From Pseudooceanicola endophyticus (GTDB lineage: Bacteria; Pseudomonadota; Alphaproteobacteria; Rhodobacterales; Rhodobacteraceae), in NCBI RefSeq assembly GCF_018760365.1, contig NZ_JAHIAB010000002.1, positions 372,001 to 436,000 on the forward strand: a DNA stretch of 64,000 nucleotides, in the 5' to 3' direction. Shown piece after piece: positions 2,988-46,829 of this stretch. The notes under the pieces were generated by a model, which was not told the origin of the DNA, searched no databases, and worked only from the letters and a program-made list of their open reading frames with translations. Made by a program: the position numbers and the translations under genes. Numbering within the stretch: position 1 is the stretch's first letter; the number at the start of each line of letters is the position of its first letter.

Positions 2988-3368
2988 ATGTTCGCGGTTC
3001 TGAAAACCGGCGGCAAGCAGTACAAAGTCCAGTCGGGCGATGTCCTGCGTGTCGAGAAGCTCGCTGCTGATGCAGGCGAGAAGATCCAGTTCAACGACAT
3101 CCTGATGCTCGGCGGTGACGACGTGACCGTTGGCGCGCCCTTCGTCGAAGGTGCCGCCGTCCAGGCCGAAGTGGTCGACCAGATCAAGGGCGAGAAGGTC
3201 ATCCACTTCGTCAAGCGTCGTCGTAAGCACTCGTCGAAGCGCACCAAGGGTCACCGTCAGCAGCTGACGCTGGTCAAGGTCACCGAGATCCTGACCTCCG
3301 GCGCAGCCGACACCGGCGTCAAGGCCGCTGTGGGCGCAGGCTCCGTCGCTGCTGTCGCAGCCGAGTAA
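2988..3368 (+). CDS. rplU: 50S ribosomal protein L21 (bL21)
   Basis: Begins MFAVLKTGGKQYKVQ, the diagnostic bL21 start, and contains the conserved HFVKRRRKHSSKRTKGHRQ rRNA-binding stretch near residues 69-87. The product is 126 residues; the core is about 103 and the rest is an Ala/Val/Gly-rich C-terminal extension typical of alphaproteobacterial L21. It binds 23S rRNA in the large subunit. The start at 2988 is preceded by AAAAAGGA. It is followed 22 bases later by rpmA, and the pair plus obgE is a widely conserved ribosome-biogenesis cluster. Confidence 0.98.
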   Translation: MFAVLKTGGKQYKVQSGDVLRVEKLAADAGEKIQFNDILMLGGDDVTVGAPFVEGAAVQAEVVDQIKGEKVIHFVKRRRKHSSKRTKGHRQQLTLVKVTEILTSGAADTGVKAAVGAGSVAAVAAE

Positions 3369-3768: not shown

Positions 3769-4308
3769 ATGGCAGAAGACACCGCGTTCGCGCAGCCCGT
3801 CATCCGCGGCGAAGATGTCGATCTTCGTCCGCTCACCAAGGCCGACGCCGGCCTGATCGAGTTCTACGCCGCTGACCCACGCGTCGCGACGATGACCACC
3901 TCGATCCCGCATCCGCTGCCACCGGGAACGACGGAGGCGTTTCTGGCGCGCGCCATGGTCGCGGACCCGCGCGAGGTGATCTGGGCGCTCGACAGCTCCC
4001 GCGTTGGCGGGGCCGAGCTGAAGGGCATCATCAGCCTGAAGCGGATGGATTCCGGCCAGTCGGAAATCGGCTATTGGGTGGCGCCATCGTGGTGGGGCGG
4101 CAACATGGCCTCGGCGGCGGTGACGGCGCTGGTCGAAGCGAACCCGCTGGGCGACCGGTCGATCTTCGCTTCGGTCTTCCAGGACAATCCGGCTTCGGCA
4201 CGGGTTCTCACCAAGAACGGCTTCGAATATGTCGGGGACGCGGAAAGTTTCTCGGTGGCGCGTGGCGCCTCCGTCGCGACCTGGACATATATCCGAAAAC
4301 TAGATTGA
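3769..4308 (+). CDS. GNAT-family N-acetyltransferase (RimJ/RimL type)
   Basis: The product is 179 residues with ATG at 3769 behind GGGAGGA. The order of elements fits the RimJ/RimL-like GNAT fold: an early VIRGEDVDLRPLTKAD strand-helix, GYWVAPSWWGGNMASAAVTALVE (the acetyl-CoA-binding stretch, around residues 103-124), and the family signature ASARVLTKNGFEYVG near residues 142-156. It transfers an acetyl group from acetyl-CoA to an amine; the substrate (often a protein N-terminus or small amine) cannot be read from sequence. It lies between rpmA and obgE, an order often seen in Rhodobacteraceae, 47 bases before obgE. Confidence 0.85.
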   Translation: MAEDTAFAQPVIRGEDVDLRPLTKADAGLIEFYAADPRVATMTTSIPHPLPPGTTEAFLARAMVADPREVIWALDSSRVGGAELKGIISLKRMDSGQSEIGYWVAPSWWGGNMASAAVTALVEANPLGDRSIFASVFQDNPASARVLTKNGFEYVGDAESFSVARGASVATWTYIRKLD

Positions 4309-14930: not shown

Positions 14931-14957
14931 TCAGAAGAACCGCTGCTGAACGGGCAT
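14931..14957 (-). CDS. 8-codon mini-ORF with strong Shine-Dalgarno
   Basis: ATG at 14957-14955 opens a frame of eight codons ending at TGA (14933-14931); the peptide reads MPVQQRFF. A near-perfect Shine-Dalgarno AGGAGGG (14973-14967) lies nine bases before the ATG, much better than most host genes here. The ORF is inside the loop of a long helix in the candidate RNA. It looks like a leader peptide, but there is no in-line gene after the terminator. Translation is inferred from spacing alone. Confidence 0.4.
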   Translation of the reverse strand: MPVQQRFF

Positions 14958-37968: not shown

Positions 37969-38045
<77 letters not shown>

Positions 38046-38237
38046 TAAAATCAAGCACTTAGGAAAAGCACACTGGACCGTCGGTCCCGTTTTGGTGTGG
38101 AAACCCGGATAATTCATGCTCGACGCGCCTCGTCTTGAGCTGAGAATTCGGGTTTGAGGTGTGCGTGTAAGCTCCTCCGGAATCGCCACATAAGTTTAGA
38201 AGGGCCATCAGTGGCCTACTGCTCTTAGGCGAATGAG

Positions 38238-38895: not shown

Positions 38896-39996
38896 TCAGG
38901 CGCGTTTGTTCATCGCATTCACGGCGGTCTGCATGTGGTCCGGCGCGTGATGGCCATACACCCGTTCAATGGTCTCGATGCTGGTGCCGAAGTATCCAGC
39001 CGCGTCCCAAGTCGTCGCGCCGCGCTGCAGGGCCCATGTGATCGCGGTGTGCTTGAGAACGTGAGGCGTGATTCCAGTCAGGTTGACGGTGATCCCGCGC
39101 GCCGCTGCCAGTTCCATCGCCAGGCTGACCGCACGGGGCCAGCCTTTTTTGATGTCCGCAACCATGCAGCGTTCTTCCACGCCCCGACGGATGATCTTCC
39201 GTTCCACCACGAACTGGCGCCCGTTCCTGGCCTGACGGCGCAGGTGCGCAAGATAGCGTTCGGGCAGGCGGGCCGGGCGCTGGCGCTTGTTGGTCTCCCG
39301 CTTGCCCTGGGGTTTGCGGTAGAGGATGCCGTTGACCGTATCGACATGGCCGCCGATCTTGCTCGGCTTGTCGATGTGCATGGCTAGGATCGTGGCCTTG
39401 CGGCTACCTGTGTAAAGGCCATGCAGGATGAAGTCCTGAAGGTGACGCCCGTCCTTGTTCAGGGCGCGTGCGCCGCGCAGCAGCCAAGCAGCCTCCTGGC
39501 GGGTCAGCCAGCGTTCCCTGGGATCGGGCTTCGGCGGCAGGGTCACCTTCGGCGCGGTGACCAGATAGCCTTCGCGGTGGCAGTAGTTCAGGGCCGCCTG
39601 CAGCACGCCCAGTTCCCGGCGGATCGTGCCGTCACTGCAACCGCGCTGCGTCGCATAGCGGCGGCAGGTCTCGCCCTTGATGGCCGAGACGGGCAGGTTC
39701 TGCCAGATCCGGTCCAGCGCCTCGATGGCGTAGCCGATGCGGGCGGGCGAGGCGACATGCGGCGCGTGTTCATCCGCGTAGATCGCCAGCACCATGGAAA
39801 TCGTCAGCTCTTCCGGTCGCGCCGGCCCGTTGGGGCGGTGCTTCCTTTCGATGTGGAGGGCGAGCAGCCTTTCAGCCTCTGGGCGGCTTGTTGTGCCGGT
39901 CGAAAGGCGAAGGGCTCCGTCGCGGATCTCCCAGACTGACGGTCCGTCTTTACGTGTTCTCCAGTGGAGGCGGGGGCCTTTGGCGCGACGCGGCAT
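38896..39996 (-). CDS. int: Phage tyrosine-type integrase
   Basis: A 366-residue site-specific recombinase. The N-terminal 60 residues look like an arm-type DNA-binding domain (LHWRTRKDGPSVWEIRDGALRLSTGT) and the core-binding domain follows. The catalytic domain has the first Arg in LYTGSRKATI (Arg199), TPHVLKHTAITW (His312, then Lys315 where the usual HxLR has Arg, and His316) and the nucleophile in IERVYGHH (Tyr347). The Lys for Arg change is a notable deviation but occurs in a conserved context. It overlaps the upstream excisionase-like gene by 193 bases and points toward tRNA-Arg. Confidence 0.92.
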   Translation of the reverse strand: MPRRAKGPRLHWRTRKDGPSVWEIRDGALRLSTGTTSRPEAERLLALHIERKHRPNGPARPEELTISMVLAIYADEHAPHVASPARIGYAIEALDRIWQNLPVSAIKGETCRRYATQRGCSDGTIRRELGVLQAALNYCHREGYLVTAPKVTLPPKPDPRERWLTRQEAAWLLRGARALNKDGRHLQDFILHGLYTGSRKATILAMHIDKPSKIGGHVDTVNGILYRKPQGKRETNKRQRPARLPERYLAHLRRQARNGRQFVVERKIIRRGVEERCMVADIKKGWPRAVSLAMELAAARGITVNLTGITPHVLKHTAITWALQRGATTWDAAGYFGTSIETIERVYGHHAPDHMQTAVNAMNKRA

Positions 39997-40154
39997 AGTT
40001 CGATCAGTTCCTTGAGGTCGTCAGGGTGCAGGCGTGCGGCGCGCCCGATGCGGATGGTCTTGCCGTGGTGATCGGCGGCGCGGCGCAGGCTCTCGACGGG
40101 GACGCCGAGCTGTGCCGCCGCGCTGGATATGGACAGCAGCCGGGGCAGGGTCAT
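39804..40154 (-). CDS. Excisionase-like DNA-binding protein
   Basis: 116 residues. The first 55 residues form a MerR/AlpA-type winged helix (LLSISSAAAQLGVPVESLRRAADHHGKTIRIGRAARLHPDDLKELIELC), as in phage excisionases. The rest is disordered and Ser/Thr/Arg-rich, and is read from DNA that also encodes the integrase N-terminus in another frame. The start overlaps the stop of the preceding gene (ATGA). Excisionase role is inferred from fold and position beside int. Confidence 0.65.
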   Translation of the reverse strand: MTLPRLLSISSAAAQLGVPVESLRRAADHHGKTIRIGRAARLHPDDLKELIELCRVAPKAPASTGEHVKTDRQSGRSATEPFAFRPAQQAAQRLKGCSPSTSKGSTAPTGRRDRKS

Positions 40155-41025: not shown

Positions 41026-41160
41026 TCAGGGATGCGGGGGAATGGCTGAGGCCAGCCGCAGGCCGATTGCGATCAGCCCGGTGATCAGGCCGCAGAGGTA
41101 AAGCAAGGCGCCGGCCCGGGCGGCCCAGATGCCAAGCCGCCGGCTGCGGCGCAGGTTCAT
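41026..41160 (-). CDS. 44-residue membrane micro-protein
   Basis: ATG at 41160 overlaps the NYN gene stop (ATGA), so translation is coupled. The sequence begins with a basic MNLRRSRRLG, then has a single long hydrophobic helix (IWAARAGALLYLCGLITGLIAIGL, about residues 11-34) and ends SAIPPHP. It is too short for standard gene callers. Small single-span proteins in lysogeny operons can act in superinfection exclusion or host modification; that is inference. Confidence 0.55.
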   Translation of the reverse strand: MNLRRSRRLGIWAARAGALLYLCGLITGLIAIGLRLASAIPPHP

Positions 41161-41708
41161 GCGGCGGCGCTGGCGCGTTCGGGGCGGGAAATTAGCGGGC
41201 GCAGGTCTTCGAGGTCCAGGAAGGTGTCGGCGGCCCGGCGCAGCTCGTCCGCCGCGAAGGGGCTGGGCTTGGTCTTCATGGACGACACCACCGTCACCCG
41301 GACGCCCTTGGACTGCAGATCCTGCACCAGCGGCGCGAAATCACGGTTCCCGGTGAAGAGCGCCATGTGCGTGATGCGGGGGGCAAGGTTCACCGCCGTC
41401 AGTGCCAGATCCACATCGGTATTGCCCCGGAAGCGGCGGCGGCCTTCGTCGTCGGTGAATTCGCGCGCCGGCTTCGCGATGACGTTCCAGCCGTTGTAGT
41501 CGAGCCAGTCGACCAGCGGGCGCAGGGCCACATGTTCGCCCTCGGCGGTGCTGATCGGCGTGAAGTAGCTGGCACGCAGCAGGCGCCCGGTCTGGGACAG
41601 CAGCCCCATCAGGCGCTTGTAATCCACGTCGATGCCCAGGGCGCGGGCGGTGGCATAGAAATTCGGGCCGTCGATCAGGGCGGCGGCGGTGTCGGTGGGG
41701 TGGAACAT
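41157..41708 (-). CDS. NYN-domain (PIN-like, LabA/DUF88 type) nuclease
   Basis: 183 residues from ATG 41708 (GGAGGA eight bases upstream). The PIN-like fold is indicated by AALIDGPNFYATARALGID with Asp13, an FRGNTDVDLALTAVNLA acid pair near 96-100, and HMALFTGNRDFAPLVQDLQSKGVRV with Asp near 124, which together form the metal site of LabA/NYN nucleases. These cut RNA or act as effectors; in prophages their job is unknown. It is in the middle of the overlapping leftward operon. Confidence 0.8.
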   Translation of the reverse strand: MFHPTDTAAALIDGPNFYATARALGIDVDYKRLMGLLSQTGRLLRASYFTPISTAEGEHVALRPLVDWLDYNGWNVIAKPAREFTDDEGRRRFRGNTDVDLALTAVNLAPRITHMALFTGNRDFAPLVQDLQSKGVRVTVVSSMKTKPSPFAADELRRAADTFLDLEDLRPLISRPERASAAA

Positions 41709-41710
41709 GG

Positions 41711-41971
41711 TCAATCCTCCGGGAATGTGGGGGCGGGATGCGCAAGCCTGACGCTCAGGATGCGGGCGCAATCGCGGTCCCTGCGGTCGCGCAGGGCAAG
41801 GCGGGCGAGGGTGGCGGTATCGGTCAGAAGGTTGCCGCCGTTCACAGGCACTGTTTCGGTGATCATCACGCCGTCCGGGCGGCGAAAGGTCACCTGCAGG
41901 TCGATGTCCGGGAAGAGGCCCGGGCGGGGCGGTTTGGCGGGGCGGTGCCGACGCAGAAGGGCGGTCAGCAT
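41711..41971 (-). CDS. Phage protein of unknown function, 86 residues
   Basis: The start ATG at 41971 overlaps the stop of the preceding micro-protein (TGATG). The sequence has an arginine/proline N-terminus and an all-beta-looking core (DIDLQVTFRRPDGVMITETVPVNGGNLLTDTATLARLAL). Not recognised. The 3' end contains the ribosome binding site of the NYN gene. Confidence 0.55.
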   Translation of the reverse strand: MLTALLRRHRPAKPPRPGLFPDIDLQVTFRRPDGVMITETVPVNGGNLLTDTATLARLALRDRRDRDCARILSVRLAHPAPTFPED

Positions 41972-42054
41972 CAGCGGCGCTGATAGAGCGACCAGACGAT
42001 GATGCCCGCATAGAGGATCGCCGCCGGGATCAGCACGGGAAGGGTCCAGCTCAT
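41971..42054 (-). CDS. 27-residue single-span membrane micro-protein
   Basis: ATG at 42054 overlaps the stop of the 130-residue gene (ATGA), and its own stop overlaps the next start (TGATG). The peptide is one hydrophobic helix (WTLPVLIPAAILYAGIIVW) with a basic YQRR end. Support comes from the double overlap and the membrane-like composition; translation is not proven. Confidence 0.5.
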   Translation of the reverse strand: MSWTLPVLIPAAILYAGIIVWSLYQRR

Positions 42055-42443
42055 GCACAATGCCCGTGGATTTCGGCCAGTACATCGGTGGCGGCCTCGC
42101 GTTCCTTCGGGGAGGGCGACAGACGCCGGATGATGTCGCAGGCGCGGGCAAGATCGCCCAGCGTGCCTTCCTCTGCGTGCAGCGCTGTGTGGCGGGCCCG
42201 TTCCAGCTGGCCTTCAAGGGCTGCGCTGCGCAGCGCCATGGCCAAGGCCGCCGGGTGGTCGCTGGCGGCGCGGCGCCAGGTCAGCAGTTCGGCGCAAAGG
42301 CCGGGCATCGTGTCGCCGAGGAAGTCGCGCGTTTCTGGCGTCATGCTGTTTTCAACGGCAAGATGTTCACGGGCGGCGAGATGAGCGAGACGCCCGTCGC
42401 TTGCCAGTGAAAGGGAATGTGTCGTGTCCAAATTCGCCTCCAT
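42051..42443 (-). CDS. First gene of the leftward phage operon, unknown function
   Basis: 130 residues, mostly helical (PETRDFLGDTMPGLCAELLTWRRAASDHPAALAMALRSAALEGQLERARHTALHAEEGTLGDL). The start at 42443 is only about nine bases from the predicted transcription start and lacks a Shine-Dalgarno, so it may be translated from a very short leader. A later Met at 42344 is possible. It is the gene most directly controlled by operators O1 and O2. Confidence 0.55.
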   Translation of the reverse strand: MEANLDTTHSLSLASDGRLAHLAAREHLAVENSMTPETRDFLGDTMPGLCAELLTWRRAASDHPAALAMALRSAALEGQLERARHTALHAEEGTLGDLARACDIIRRLSPSPKEREAATDVLAEIHGHCA

Positions 42444-42458
42444 CTGTTGGATGCCGGT

Positions 42459-42486
42459 AGAATATCCACGAAAAATGGACTGGCAA
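42459..42486 (-). promoter_or_regulatory. Leftward early promoter (PL-like)
   Basis: Minus-strand TTGCCA (42486-42481) and TATTCT (42464-42459) with a 16-base spacer. Operator O1 fills the spacer exactly, so repressor binding would block polymerase. Confidence 0.6.
42465..42479. promoter_or_regulatory. Operator O1, TCCA-N7-TGGA
   Basis: TCCACGAAAAATGGA, one of three perfect copies of a 15-bp half-site pair. It sits between the -35 and -10 of the leftward promoter. Confidence 0.7.
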
Positions 42487-42494
42487 GAAGAAAA

Positions 42495-42509
42495 TCCATA
42501 AACAATGGA
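42495..42509. promoter_or_regulatory. Operator O2, TCCA-N7-TGGA
   Basis: TCCATAAACAATGGA; extended symmetry gives AAATCCAT and ATGGATTT arms. It lies exactly 30 bp (about three helical turns) from O1, on the same DNA face, suiting cooperative repressor binding. Confidence 0.7.
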
Positions 42510-42781
42510 TTTTGACTGTTGCGCCTAACCGCAGAGTGAGCCTCTGGGCCGCAACTGAGCGGATATTTTGAGCCTGGAATTCGGGTTTTCTGAACGAACC
42601 TGAGGGTGAAGGCGCTCTGGCTATGTCATTGGGTTGCGCCCGTCGGATGCCGAGGGGGATCGGGCATTTAGCAACACTCTAGGGCGAAATGTCTCTGCTC
42701 ATGGCAATTTCGTGTTGAACCCGCCTCGCGTGACCTAAGGCGTCGAAGCCGCTTCCTGGGGACTAGGGCGGCAAGTCACGG
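42510..42781. other. Non-coding stretch between leftward operon and repressor
   Basis: About 270 bases with moderate GC. No ORF with a usable start, no further copy of the operator, and no strong hairpin until the terminator at 42782. Confidence 0.45.
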
Positions 42782-42809
42782 AAATAAAAGAACCGCCAGA
42801 AGGCGGTTC
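42782..42809 (-). terminator. Intrinsic terminator of the repressor gene
   Basis: GAACCGCC and GGCGGTTC with an AGAA loop; on the minus strand it is followed by TTTTATTTC. It lies about 80 bases after the repressor stop. Confidence 0.85.
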
Positions 42810-42890
42810 GAGGAGAAAGGAAGGTATGCAGAATGCAGGTGCCCGTACTTTATCGGATTGCCCGCGTCGCTGTGCGCCTTGGGGTGGACC

Positions 42891-43226
42891 TCAACTGGCT
42901 GTTTGATCCCATTCATCGTTTGCGCGCTGGAGGGCAGGGAACAGGGAGGCTTGAACATCGGCAGGAAGCTGGGCGAAATCGCCGTTCATGATGAAGTTAA
43001 AGTCGATCCGATGCGCCCTGTATAGGTAGCGCATCACGTCCCGGTTCGGGAACTGAAGCCCCTTTTCAATATTGTTGTAAGAAGTCTTCGAGACCCCGCA
43101 TCGCGTCGCGAACTCGGACTGCCTGTCAAAGCCAGCAGCATACCTGGCAGCCTTCACGCGGATCGCGCTGGCTTTGACGCCCATGTCGCTCTTATGGGCC
43201 AATTTTTCTTGTTCAAGAATATCCAT
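42891..43226 (-). CDS. XRE-family phage repressor (CI-like)
   Basis: 111 residues from Met 43226; a Met at 43256 would add ten residues. The HTH is clear: RVKAARYAAGFDRQSEFATRCGVSKTSYNNIEKGLQFPNRDVMRYLYRAHRIDFNFIMNGD, with the recognition helix around SKTSYNNIEKG. It lacks a peptidase (LexA-like) domain, so induction would not be by RecA-stimulated self-cleavage. It is flanked by operators on both sides (O1/O2 about 400 bp away, O3/O4 directly upstream) and is divergent from the Cro-like gene, the standard immunity layout. Confidence 0.8.
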   Translation of the reverse strand: MDILEQEKLAHKSDMGVKASAIRVKAARYAAGFDRQSEFATRCGVSKTSYNNIEKGLQFPNRDVMRYLYRAHRIDFNFIMNGDFAQLPADVQASLFPALQRANDEWDQTAS

Positions 43227-43276
43227 GCTGGTCAGTCGGCCTTCGACGTGTGTCACGGAGTCTGTTCTAACCGCTG

Positions 43277-43291
43277 TCCAGAAAATATGAA
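43277..43291. promoter_or_regulatory. Operator O4, degenerate TCCA-N7-TGAA
   Basis: TCCAGAAAATATGAA keeps the first half-site and the A-rich centre but has TGAA for TGGA. It is 40 bp from O3 (four helical turns) and overlaps the likely minus-strand promoter region of the repressor gene, so it may serve autoregulation. Confidence 0.45.
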
Positions 43292-43309
43292 CCTTCTGCG
43301 GGATGGACG

Positions 43310-43337
43310 TTGATAGTCCAAAAAAAATGGATTAACG
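43310..43337 (+). promoter_or_regulatory. Rightward early promoter (PR-like)
   Basis: TTGATA (43310-43315) and TTAACG (43332-43337) with a 16-base spacer filled by operator O3, the same geometry as the leftward promoter. The predicted start at about 43,344 falls on the ATG of the Cro-like gene (43345), so the message may be leaderless. Confidence 0.55.
43317..43331. promoter_or_regulatory. Operator O3, TCCA-N7-TGGA
   Basis: TCCAAAAAAAATGGA, with an A-tract centre. It sits inside the spacer of the rightward promoter. Confidence 0.7.
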
Positions 43338-43344
43338 CTGGCCT

Positions 43345-43626
43345 ATGTGCAGCGTTTCTGACATCTGTAACCGCCTGGGCCGTCGGCAGATTGCCGAACG
43401 TCTTGGGGTAGTGCCGACCACGGTGAGCAATGCAGCCGTGGCCGGCCTCTTCCCGGCAAAATGGTACCTGGTTCTGCGCGAAATGTGCGCGGCGGAAGGG
43501 ATCGACTGCCCGGAAGAGCTCTTCCGCTTCTCACGTGTGCAGAGCGTGGGGACTGAAGCGTTGGAGCCGGCAGAGGGACGTGGAGCCGATCACGCCGTCC
43601 AACTTGCGCATTGCACGCGATCTTAA
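43345..43626 (+). CDS. Cro-like HTH protein
   Basis: 93 residues. Residues 4-50 form an HTH (SDICNRLGRRQIAERLGVVPTTVSNAAVAGLFPAKWYLVLREMCAAEGIDC), like the YdaS/Cro group. The last 30 residues are unstructured. There is no Shine-Dalgarno before the ATG and the promoter start coincides with it, so it may be a leaderless message. It is divergent from the repressor across O3/O4 and is expected to oppose it. Confidence 0.7.
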   Translation: MCSVSDICNRLGRRQIAERLGVVPTTVSNAAVAGLFPAKWYLVLREMCAAEGIDCPEELFRFSRVQSVGTEALEPAEGRGADHAVQLAHCTRS

Positions 43627-45585: not shown

Positions 45586-46173
45586 ATGGACAGTGCAGAA
45601 CAGGCAGAGGGTGCCCGCAGGGTGCGGGCGTTGCTGGTCGAGCCATTGCAGCGGCGGGGGTTGGTGAAGCCTTCGGCCATGACCAAGGACCAATTCGCGG
45701 CGATGCTGGACGACATGTGCGCCCGGCTGGCCTACATGAGCGCGGGCAGCATTGCCGCCCTGGAAGAGGAAGCCGCCGGGATGGCCAGCGGCAAGGATCG
45801 GGATCGCTTCCCCATCGCGCAGCGCATCCTGGAAAAGGCCTCGGACATCGAACCGCCGGGCGATGACGCCTCGCCGCTGATCCGGGCCGTCTTCGCCAAT
45901 CAGGTGGGGCATGAGGCGCTGGCCGGGGGCTGGGCGCCCGAACTGCTGGCCGAGGTTCGCCGGACGCGGAAATGGCCGGGCAAGTACACCCTCAGTCAGG
46001 TGCGCGCGCAGGCCGATGACGCGCTGCGCAAGATGACCCGCCTGCGCGAGTTCGAAGGGCAGGGGCAGGCGCTGACGCAGGAGGAAAGCACCTGGCTGCA
46101 GCGGCGGCGCGACGCGCTGGCGAAGTGCCGGCGGATCGCGGACCTGGGCCAGATGGCAGAGGGCGGCGCATGA
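45586..46173 (+). CDS. Phage protein of unknown function before the NusG-like gene
   Basis: 195 residues from ATG 45586. Nearly all-helical, with RVRALLVEPLQRRGLVKPSAMTKDQFAAMLDDMCARLAYMS and a C-terminal KYTLSQVRAQADDALRKMTRLREFEGQGQALTQEESTWLQRRRDALAKC. I do not recognise a family. Its stop overlaps the NusG-like start (ATGA), suggesting joint function or at least coupled translation. Confidence 0.55.
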   Translation: MDSAEQAEGARRVRALLVEPLQRRGLVKPSAMTKDQFAAMLDDMCARLAYMSAGSIAALEEEAAGMASGKDRDRFPIAQRILEKASDIEPPGDDASPLIRAVFANQVGHEALAGGWAPELLAEVRRTRKWPGKYTLSQVRAQADDALRKMTRLREFEGQGQALTQEESTWLQRRRDALAKCRRIADLGQMAEGGA

Positions 46174-46829
46174 GCATGATGGGCAAGATCGAAGCGCAGG
46201 AACTGCAATGGTTCGCCGTCCGCGTGAAGCGCAAGCAGGTGGGCGGTATCGGGCGCGCCACGGTCGGGGGCGAGTTCGAAGCCTATCGCGACCGCGAGGG
46301 CCGGGTAAGGAAGCGTCGTATCAGCGGCACCGGCACCCGGGTCTTCCTGCCGGAACACATCCTGAAGCGCGCAGGGTTTCAGGTCTTCCTGCCGGTCAAG
46401 AAGGTCATGAAGCGCCGCAACCGGTTCAACCCGGAACGGATCTGCGTCAGCCAGCCGCTGCTGGTCGACTGGATGTTCGTCGGCTGGCCGGTGGGCGAGA
46501 GGCGCTGGCATCAGCTGATGGCGCTGGACGTGGTGTCGGGCGTCATGGGCACCGGCGGGCATCCCGTCGCCATCCCCGAGGCCCGGATGCTGCAGCTGAT
46601 GCGGCAATGGGGCGGGGGACAGCTGGATGCGAACCTGCACCAGCGGGTGAAGGCCGCGCAGGATCTGCGCCCCGGCGATCTGGCCCGCGTCGTGGCGGGG
46701 CCGTTGCAGGATCATGACCTGCGGGTGGTCGAGGTGACGGGCCCTTCGGTGAAGGGGCTGATGGCGCTTCTGGGCGGCGAAATACCGGTCGAGGTTCGCG
46801 CCGAACTGCTGCAGCCCGCCGTGCGTTAA
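46170..46829 (+). CDS. NusG-like phage antiterminator candidate
   Basis: 219 residues. The N-terminal half resembles a NusG/RfaH NGN domain: LQWFAVRVKRKQVGG, a 40-residue insertion, then GFQVFLPVKKVMKRRNRFNPERICVSQPLLVDWMFVGWP and a strand near WHQLMALDVVSGVMGTGGHPVAIPEARMLQLM. The C-terminus has a KOW-type motif (LRPGDLARVVAGPLQDHDLRVVEVTGPSVKGLMALLGGEIPVEV). Such proteins clamp RNA polymerase and reduce pausing. Being the last gene before a long non-coding stretch and the late operon, it stands where lambda has Q. That function is inference from domain and place. Confidence 0.7.
   Translation: MSMMGKIEAQELQWFAVRVKRKQVGGIGRATVGGEFEAYRDREGRVRKRRISGTGTRVFLPEHILKRAGFQVFLPVKKVMKRRNRFNPERICVSQPLLVDWMFVGWPVGERRWHQLMALDVVSGVMGTGGHPVAIPEARMLQLMRQWGGGQLDANLHQRVKAAQDLRPGDLARVVAGPLQDHDLRVVEVTGPSVKGLMALLGGEIPVEVRAELLQPAVR

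Follow-up and report, generated by a model that had tools for sequence, protein, structure and literature searches.

How might a repressor made of a single DNA-binding domain control a prophage, and through which sites? The question is raised by copies of TCCA-N7-TGGA that lie on both sides of a gene for a small helix-turn-helix (HTH) protein in Pseudooceanicola endophyticus. The window, that is, the whole stretch analysed, comprises 64,000 nt of this genome (GCF_018760365.1, contig NZ_JAHIAB010000002.1, forward-strand positions 372,001-436,000). As read from the DNA, the locus is very probably a lambda-like prophage immunity region in which a one-domain HTH repressor acts on OL and OR sites, in the manner set out below.

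The Prophage and Its Gene Blocks

The exact 49-bp repeat found at the tRNA-Arg(ccg) gene and again past the window edge (Table 1) delimits a prophage of about 36.2 kb, and the repressor gene falls within it. The leftward block carries a phage DNA methyltransferase gene near xis and int, two genes that are also present in the leftward block of a related locus (L116); for most of the other loci the flanking sequence is too short to show them. The rightward block runs from the Cro-like gene through weak replication-type matches (44646) and a NusG-like gene to the terminase and a lambda-type portal. The NusG-like gene (46125-46829, plus strand) matches the Pfam NusG model and, weakly, UpxY and RfaH; its product might be a phage-borne antiterminator.

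A small XRE protein with a methyltransferase gene in the block to its left, and with C proteins among the fold matches of its model, could belong to a restriction-modification style controller or another autoregulated XRE system instead of a phage immunity switch. This is very improbable, since the methyltransferase belongs to a phage family (phrog_757) and lies close to xis and int, the terminase, portal and att repeat define a prophage, and the operators sit on two divergent phage promoters.

Table 1. Features of the immunity region and its surroundings, in window coordinates
Feature	Position	Strand	Sequence or remark
tRNA-Arg(ccg)	37969-38045		
attL, 49-bp repeat at tRNA-Arg(ccg) 3' end	37998-38046	+	Identical copy at 74183-74231, past window edge
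Integrase gene, far end of leftward block	38896-39996	-	
xis-like HTH_17 gene, leftward block	39804-40154		HTH_17 score under library cut-off
NYN-domain protein gene, leftward prophage block	41157-42011	-	
First gene of leftward operon	42051-42431	-	Start probably TTG 42431, GGAGG 42441-42437 ahead
PL leader inverted repeat	42439-42451	-	Predicted fold
PL	42459-42486	-	TTGCCA 42486-42481, 16 nt, TATTCT 42464-42459; promoter scan, family profile
OL1 (O1)	42465-42479		TCCACGAAAAATGGA; within PL spacer
OL2 (O2)	42495-42509		TCCATAAACAATGGA; 30 bp from OL1
Terminator-like hairpin 3' of repressor gene	42790-42809	-	3 such in 1.7 kb scanned, 2.0 by chance
Repressor gene, HTH only	42891-43256	-	121 aa from GTG 43256, or 111 aa from ATG 43226
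PRM (repressor promoter)	43264-43291	-	TTCATA 43291-43286, 16 nt, TAGAAC 43269-43264; sequence, family alignment
OR3 (O4)	43277-43291		TCCAGAAAATATGAA; one good half, other overlaps PRM -35
Half-operator	43304-43307		TGGA; 9 nt from OR1
PR	43310-43338	+	TTGATA 43310-43315, 17 nt, TAACGC 43333-43338; read from sequence, family profile
OR1 (O3)	43317-43331		TCCAAAAAAAATGGA; within PR spacer, same place in relatives
Cro-like HTH gene, first of rightward operon	43345-43626	+	Start codon 14 nt past OR1

Operator Sites in the Window

The original prediction described three perfect copies of TCCA-N7-TGGA and a degenerate fourth surrounding the repressor gene. All three perfect copies (OL1, OL2 and OR1) are present, are the only exact matches in the 64-kb window, and lie with the fourth site on both sides of the gene in a layout that the relatives keep. 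Could such a cluster be a chance or low-complexity A/T effect of the promoter region? Promoter DNA is A/T-rich, shuffled windows hold 0.84 exact sites on average with three or more in 4 of 100, and matches with at most one mismatch number 17 in the window against a chance mean of 21.0, which is no excess. The idea can nevertheless hardly be credited: among 3000 first-order Markov copies of the local 916-bp region none holds three exact sites and one holds two, and across 58 related loci the spacing is kept while half-sites that contain G and C change in concert.

Since one-mismatch matches occur at the chance level, the fourth site (OR3) is judged by its place and its A/T centre: within the window, only this site and the three exact ones combine at most one mismatch with five or more A/T bases among the central seven. 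There is indeed a one-mismatch site where the degenerate copy had been placed, but simple decay does not describe it. In 43 of 58 loci the odd half, which overlaps the PRM -35, reads TTCA, and in only eight of the 58 does it agree with the half-site of the locus; the other half agrees in 44 of 58. The odd half is likely imperfect because its bases also serve as the -35 element from which the repressor gene is transcribed.

Whether the pattern is confined to these sites in the host genome had been put forward as a check, and it is not: exact TCCA-N7-TGGA occurs at 31 places. Of these copies, 28 have at most four A/T bases in the seven-base centre, yet the window's three have five, six and seven. 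The bare pattern was dropped as a criterion of specificity in the genome; the A/T centre alone sets the phage sites apart, and specificity must come partly from it, given the 31 places. The predicted distances of 30 and 40 bp between centres are right, but "whole numbers of helical turns" is approximate (30/10.5 = 2.9 and 40/10.5 = 3.8); exact helical phasing was dropped, the spacing in relatives being 30-31 and 39-41 bp.

The circuit had also been called complete. Its seating of operators in promoters stands, but the Cro-like gene and the half-operator TGGA ahead of OR1 had been overlooked. A half-site of the locus's own type recurs exactly at this 9-nt offset in 20 of 58 loci and one base further in 4 of 58, against a mean of 5.8 and a maximum of 12 for swapped consensus sequences at the 9-nt offset. 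On the simplest reading, the TGGA at 43304-43307 is possibly a weak OR2.

Operators in Related Loci

Relatives of the repressor were sought in viral contigs, genome contigs and genomes, giving 81 distinct hits after removal of duplicates. The family consists of the 60 with a profile score of at least 69 and a length of at least 90 aa; the other 21 are low-scoring XRE proteins or truncated rows (L073 and L117). At E <= 1e-9 the family profile finds matches in 15 of 394 sampled genomes of the host family and 21 of 390 of the host order. Named hosts include Aliiroseovarius, Tateyamaria and Paracoccus, and one Sulfitobacter plasmid carries a 34% match. Among 50,697 phage records the window repressor has no match at E 1e-5, and a family-type query of two joined members has none in the phage collection at E 1e-3.

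A test free of any motif took the 130 bp ahead of each repressor start and looked there for two 15-bp sites 37-43 bp apart whose four 4-base half-sites agree. In 46 of 60 loci the best pair stays within two mismatches, compared with 3.45 of 60 in dinucleotide shuffles, and these pairs cluster at offsets of -73 to -76 and spacings of 39-41. Two loci were set aside because they have no pair at the expected place (TCCGAAATTATCGGA lies farther out in L063, and nothing clear is seen in L013), which leaves 58. OR1 was taken as the best palindrome near -74 and set by hand in six of them (L001, L014, L016, L038, L094 and L095).

Counted over these 58 loci, whose rows are kin by descent (close pairs such as L111/L112 and L089/L090) and hence are non-independent events, the half-sites are TCCA in 16, TCCG in 15, TACA in 12, TTCA and TACG in four each, CTCA in three, GTCA in two, and TATG and TCTG in one each. 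Downstream of the repressor gene, a search with the locus's own half-site succeeds in 45 of 58 loci at a limit of two mismatches; the two sites of the pair are 30-31 bp apart in 43 of these and 48-49 bp apart in the other two. The 13 failures are ten pairs with three or four mismatches and three loci without a pair. When the half-site is borrowed from a locus of another type, 2.3% of downstream searches do as well. Sites on both sides of the gene change in concert, as one recognising protein would impose.

A second prophage-like locus occurs in the genome of the window itself (L037; G000:C42:319000-324587). Its methyltransferase is 88% identical to that of the window prophage and its repressor 40% identical to the window's. 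The operators there are of the TCCG/TCTG type, so the two prophages should, to judge by these sites, be heteroimmune.

Promoters, Message Starts and the PL Leader

The operators had been predicted to fill the spacers of a leftward and a rightward promoter, and both placements are borne out. TTGCCA-16-TATTCT encloses O1. TTGATA-17-TAACGC, which is absent from the strict promoter-scan results, encloses O3 and is backed by the family profile; its spacer is made up of one base, the operator and one further base. Aligned on OR1, the 58 loci have TTG before the operator (98, 84 and 87%) and TA after it (82 and 86%). The PL profile on OL1 is looser (T 96%, T 64% and G 54% before; T 72% and A 88% after) and covers 50 of the 58 loci, those with a pair of at most three mismatches at 30-31 bp and enough sequence. 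OR1 and OL1 thus lie inside the PR and PL spacers in most loci. By Escherichia coli standards the window's PR -10, TAACGC, is weak; it is less odd in this host group, because most alphaproteobacterial -10 elements are described as lacking the final T (PMC8407463).

The PRM profile draws on 55 of the 58 loci; left aside are the three CTCA loci, in which a longer gap separates the repressor start from the operators. The -10 of PRM is loosely conserved, with A at -11 in 85% and T at -12 in 49% of these 55 relatives, and TA at -12 and -11 in 28 of all 58 loci. It ends 6 nt ahead of the repressor start codon, and the preceding base is C in 74% of the 55. On the other side, 57 of 58 loci have the start codon of the Cro-like gene at +13 to +16, counted from OR1, where the transcript is expected to start. 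Since the start codons stand at or next to expected transcript starts, these promoter-to-start distances suggest that the repressor and cro messages are both probably leaderless. The repressor gene had been predicted to begin at ATG 43226. The gene stands, but its start moves: GTG 43256, seven bases behind the PRM -10 and in frame with that ATG, gives a protein ten codons longer and, if the messages are leaderless, is probably the true start.

The PL message is predicted to carry a leader with a small hairpin of its own (42437-42453, minus strand), in which TCCA 42451-42448 pairs with TGGA 42442-42439 over the GGAGG (z -0.9 in the window, not significant alone). In the 50 loci of the PL profile the leader from +8 to +45 is more stable than its shuffles (mean z -1.43, 30 of 50 below -1). 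The effect is weaker when the fold begins at +12, nearer the likely transcript start (mean -1.02, 23 of 50); the controls give -0.12 (8 of 50) for the next 38 nt and +0.18 (6 of 58) for the PR start. The stem sequences differ between loci, which suggests that the repeat is an RNA structure, with a DNA-binding inverted repeat as the alternative.

The Repressor, the Cro-like Protein and the Half-site

The repressor had been described as lacking a self-cleavage domain, and domain searches agree: its 111-121 aa give HTH matches only, with no C-terminal domain for self-cleavage or cooperativity. A model built from the one sequence is all helix, the last helix spanning residues 89-110; the best of five models has a mean pLDDT of 89 and the other four 48-52. 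Fold matches in the PDB include 434 Cro and P22 C2 with a probability of about 1, but none has E <0.001. The family profile is closest to the DNA-binding domains of P22 C2 (1adr, E 1.3e-5) and 434, and the best viral match is an HTH protein of an uncultured phage (E 1.1e-4). The Cro-like gene is named by its position, its library matches being weak (best E 0.027); a divergent HTH-type ORF is the first rightward gene in 57 of 58 loci.

An A-rich operator centre had been taken to point to indirect readout. The relatives' sites have such a centre too: across 202 sites, A/T makes up 91-99% at positions 6-10, compared with 41% in the background. P22 and 434 operators are described as having an A/T-rich centre that is not contacted and is read indirectly (PMC3317979), and the centres found here fit the same kind of readout.

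The half-site itself appears to be matched by residues of both proteins. At half-site position 4, A goes with Asn52 in 35 of 37 repressors and G with Ser52 in 20 of 21, so that residue 52 fits the base in 55 of 58 loci (the exceptions are L015, L038 and L017). At the corresponding residue of the Cro-like protein, Asn is present in 34 of the 37 loci with A, and Ser, Thr or His takes its place in 20 of 20 loci with G. This agreement could mean that the operators serve chiefly the Cro-like protein or another regulator, and that the HTH protein of 42891-43256 is not the lysogenic repressor. Such an arrangement is unlikely: sites lie on both sides of the repressor gene, with one over its own promoter, and residue 52 of the repressor fits position 4 in those 55 loci. 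Moreover, two proteins acting on the same sites is the lambda pattern, which makes this partly a question of share.

The correspondence between residue and half-site is a lead, not proof. At position 2, repressor residues 66, 40 and 36 show the strongest raw associations, and all three are outside the recognition helix. A poorly resolved tree, from which the helix columns were omitted, requires 14 or more changes of the 4-mer but just two at position 4; the link between position 4 and its residue is confounded by descent, independent pairs being too few.

A Model of the Switch

The preferred reading, a lambda-like immunity region, leads to the following model. Dimers of the repressor would recognise 15-bp sites in which two 4-bp half-sites enclose an A/T-rich centre. 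Seated at OL1 and OR1, which the sequence places between the -35 and -10 elements of PL and PR, the repressor would shut off the leftward genes, with xis and int at their end, as well as the Cro-like and replication genes to the right. Binding at OR3 would limit the repressor's own synthesis, while OL2 and the half-site near OR1 may aid occupancy. The Cro-like protein would compete for the same sites, as the tracking of the half-site by its helix suggests. The repressor and cro messages, from the spacing of promoters and start codons, would begin at or beside the start codons.

With no domain for self-cleavage in the repressor, induction would have to take another route, which may be an antirepressor, competition by the Cro-like protein or loss of repressor. 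The SOS-type direct repeat motif is GTTC-N7-GTTC. Neither it nor its complement occurs in the prophage; the window's copies, at 14937 and 29967, lie outside the prophage, and none is found in the next 19 kb. GAAC-N7-GTTC palindromes are present in the prophage at 46200, 66353 and 71640; the single copy in the window is at the chance level (0.56 expected).

A wider proposal, plausible but tentative, treats the family as a retargetable series of switches. Its layout would be fixed (OR1, the half-site, OR3, an OL pair at 30-31 bp, and operators filling two spacers of 16-17 nt), while the specificities of repressor, Cro-like protein and operators would have shifted jointly several times among up to nine half-site types. 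Both messages would be leaderless, and the leftward operon would have a gate at the RNA level, a leader hairpin over its ribosome site. The value lies in the family, in which the layout is fixed and the specificity changes. For roseobacter prophages and their relatives it makes the switch readable, and the repressor, Cro-like and operator sequences, paired across 58 loci, form a data set from which to learn the residues behind half-site specificity and to forecast mutual immunity between prophages.

Comparison with Known Systems

A search of PubMed Central titles and abstract openings, which leaves most subscription literature outside, found no description of these operators. Several temperate phages offer partial likenesses. 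Gifsy lambdoid prophages have non-cleavable repressors and LexA-controlled antirepressors (PMC3121763). The present system shares the lack of self-cleavage and the heteroimmune relatives with different operators, but its prophage lacks the SOS-type direct repeat. Rhizobium phage 16-3, a temperate phage of an alphaproteobacterium, likewise has a repressor (C) and an immunity region (immC) of its own (PMC10460002); the sequence comparison was the search of the 50,697 phage records, which gave no match. The temperate Sulfitobacter phages phi-A and phi-D belong to the roseobacter phages, and their XRE regulators are described without a LexA or peptidase domain (PMC7305329). Their authors leave the switch to future study, and the word "operator" does not appear in that paper (PMC7305329).

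Paracoccus phage Shpa (L119) has GCTA-N7-TAGC repeats at 3814-3989, two of them 31 bp apart, near a gene for a Cro-like relative with 33% identity; a repressor of the window's family was not found in the stretch searched. Three phage records have a Cro-like match, among them EBPR podovirus 2 (JF412295), whose gp66 is 50% identical over 62 aa. In its gp65/gp66 pair the opposite-strand gene is annotated as a transcriptional regulator, and the record matches the family model weakly (E 3.2e-6). This phage (L120, 3923-4001) has OR-type sites of similar look: TCCACCTTATGTGGA lies between TTGATG and TATAGT, as in a PR-like spacer, and is preceded by a TGGA half-site and, at a greater distance, by TTCACAAAATGTGAA. 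The partial record, annotated only as regulator and promoter, shows no like sites paired at 28-44 bp with at most one mismatch between positions 3000 and 4001 of the stretch.

The immunity region of lambda is laid out around cI, cro, OL and OR, and its cI message from PRM is leaderless. With lambda, 434 and P22 the present locus shares operators that flank the repressor gene and are seated in PL and PR, a divergent cro-like gene, a repressor promoter facing OR, and an HTH of the P22 C2 and 434 type. It shares as well the A/T-rich centre, described as uncontacted in P22 and 434 (PMC3317979). It differs from lambda in that a lone HTH domain of about 100-121 aa makes up the repressor, with no part for cleavage or cooperativity, that OL has two sites and OR two full-length sites and one half-site in place of lambda's three full sites in each, and that the repressor and cro messages are both predicted to be leaderless. 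That it represents a new variant of the lambda-type immunity region, one with single-domain repressors, is well supported by comparison of the loci.
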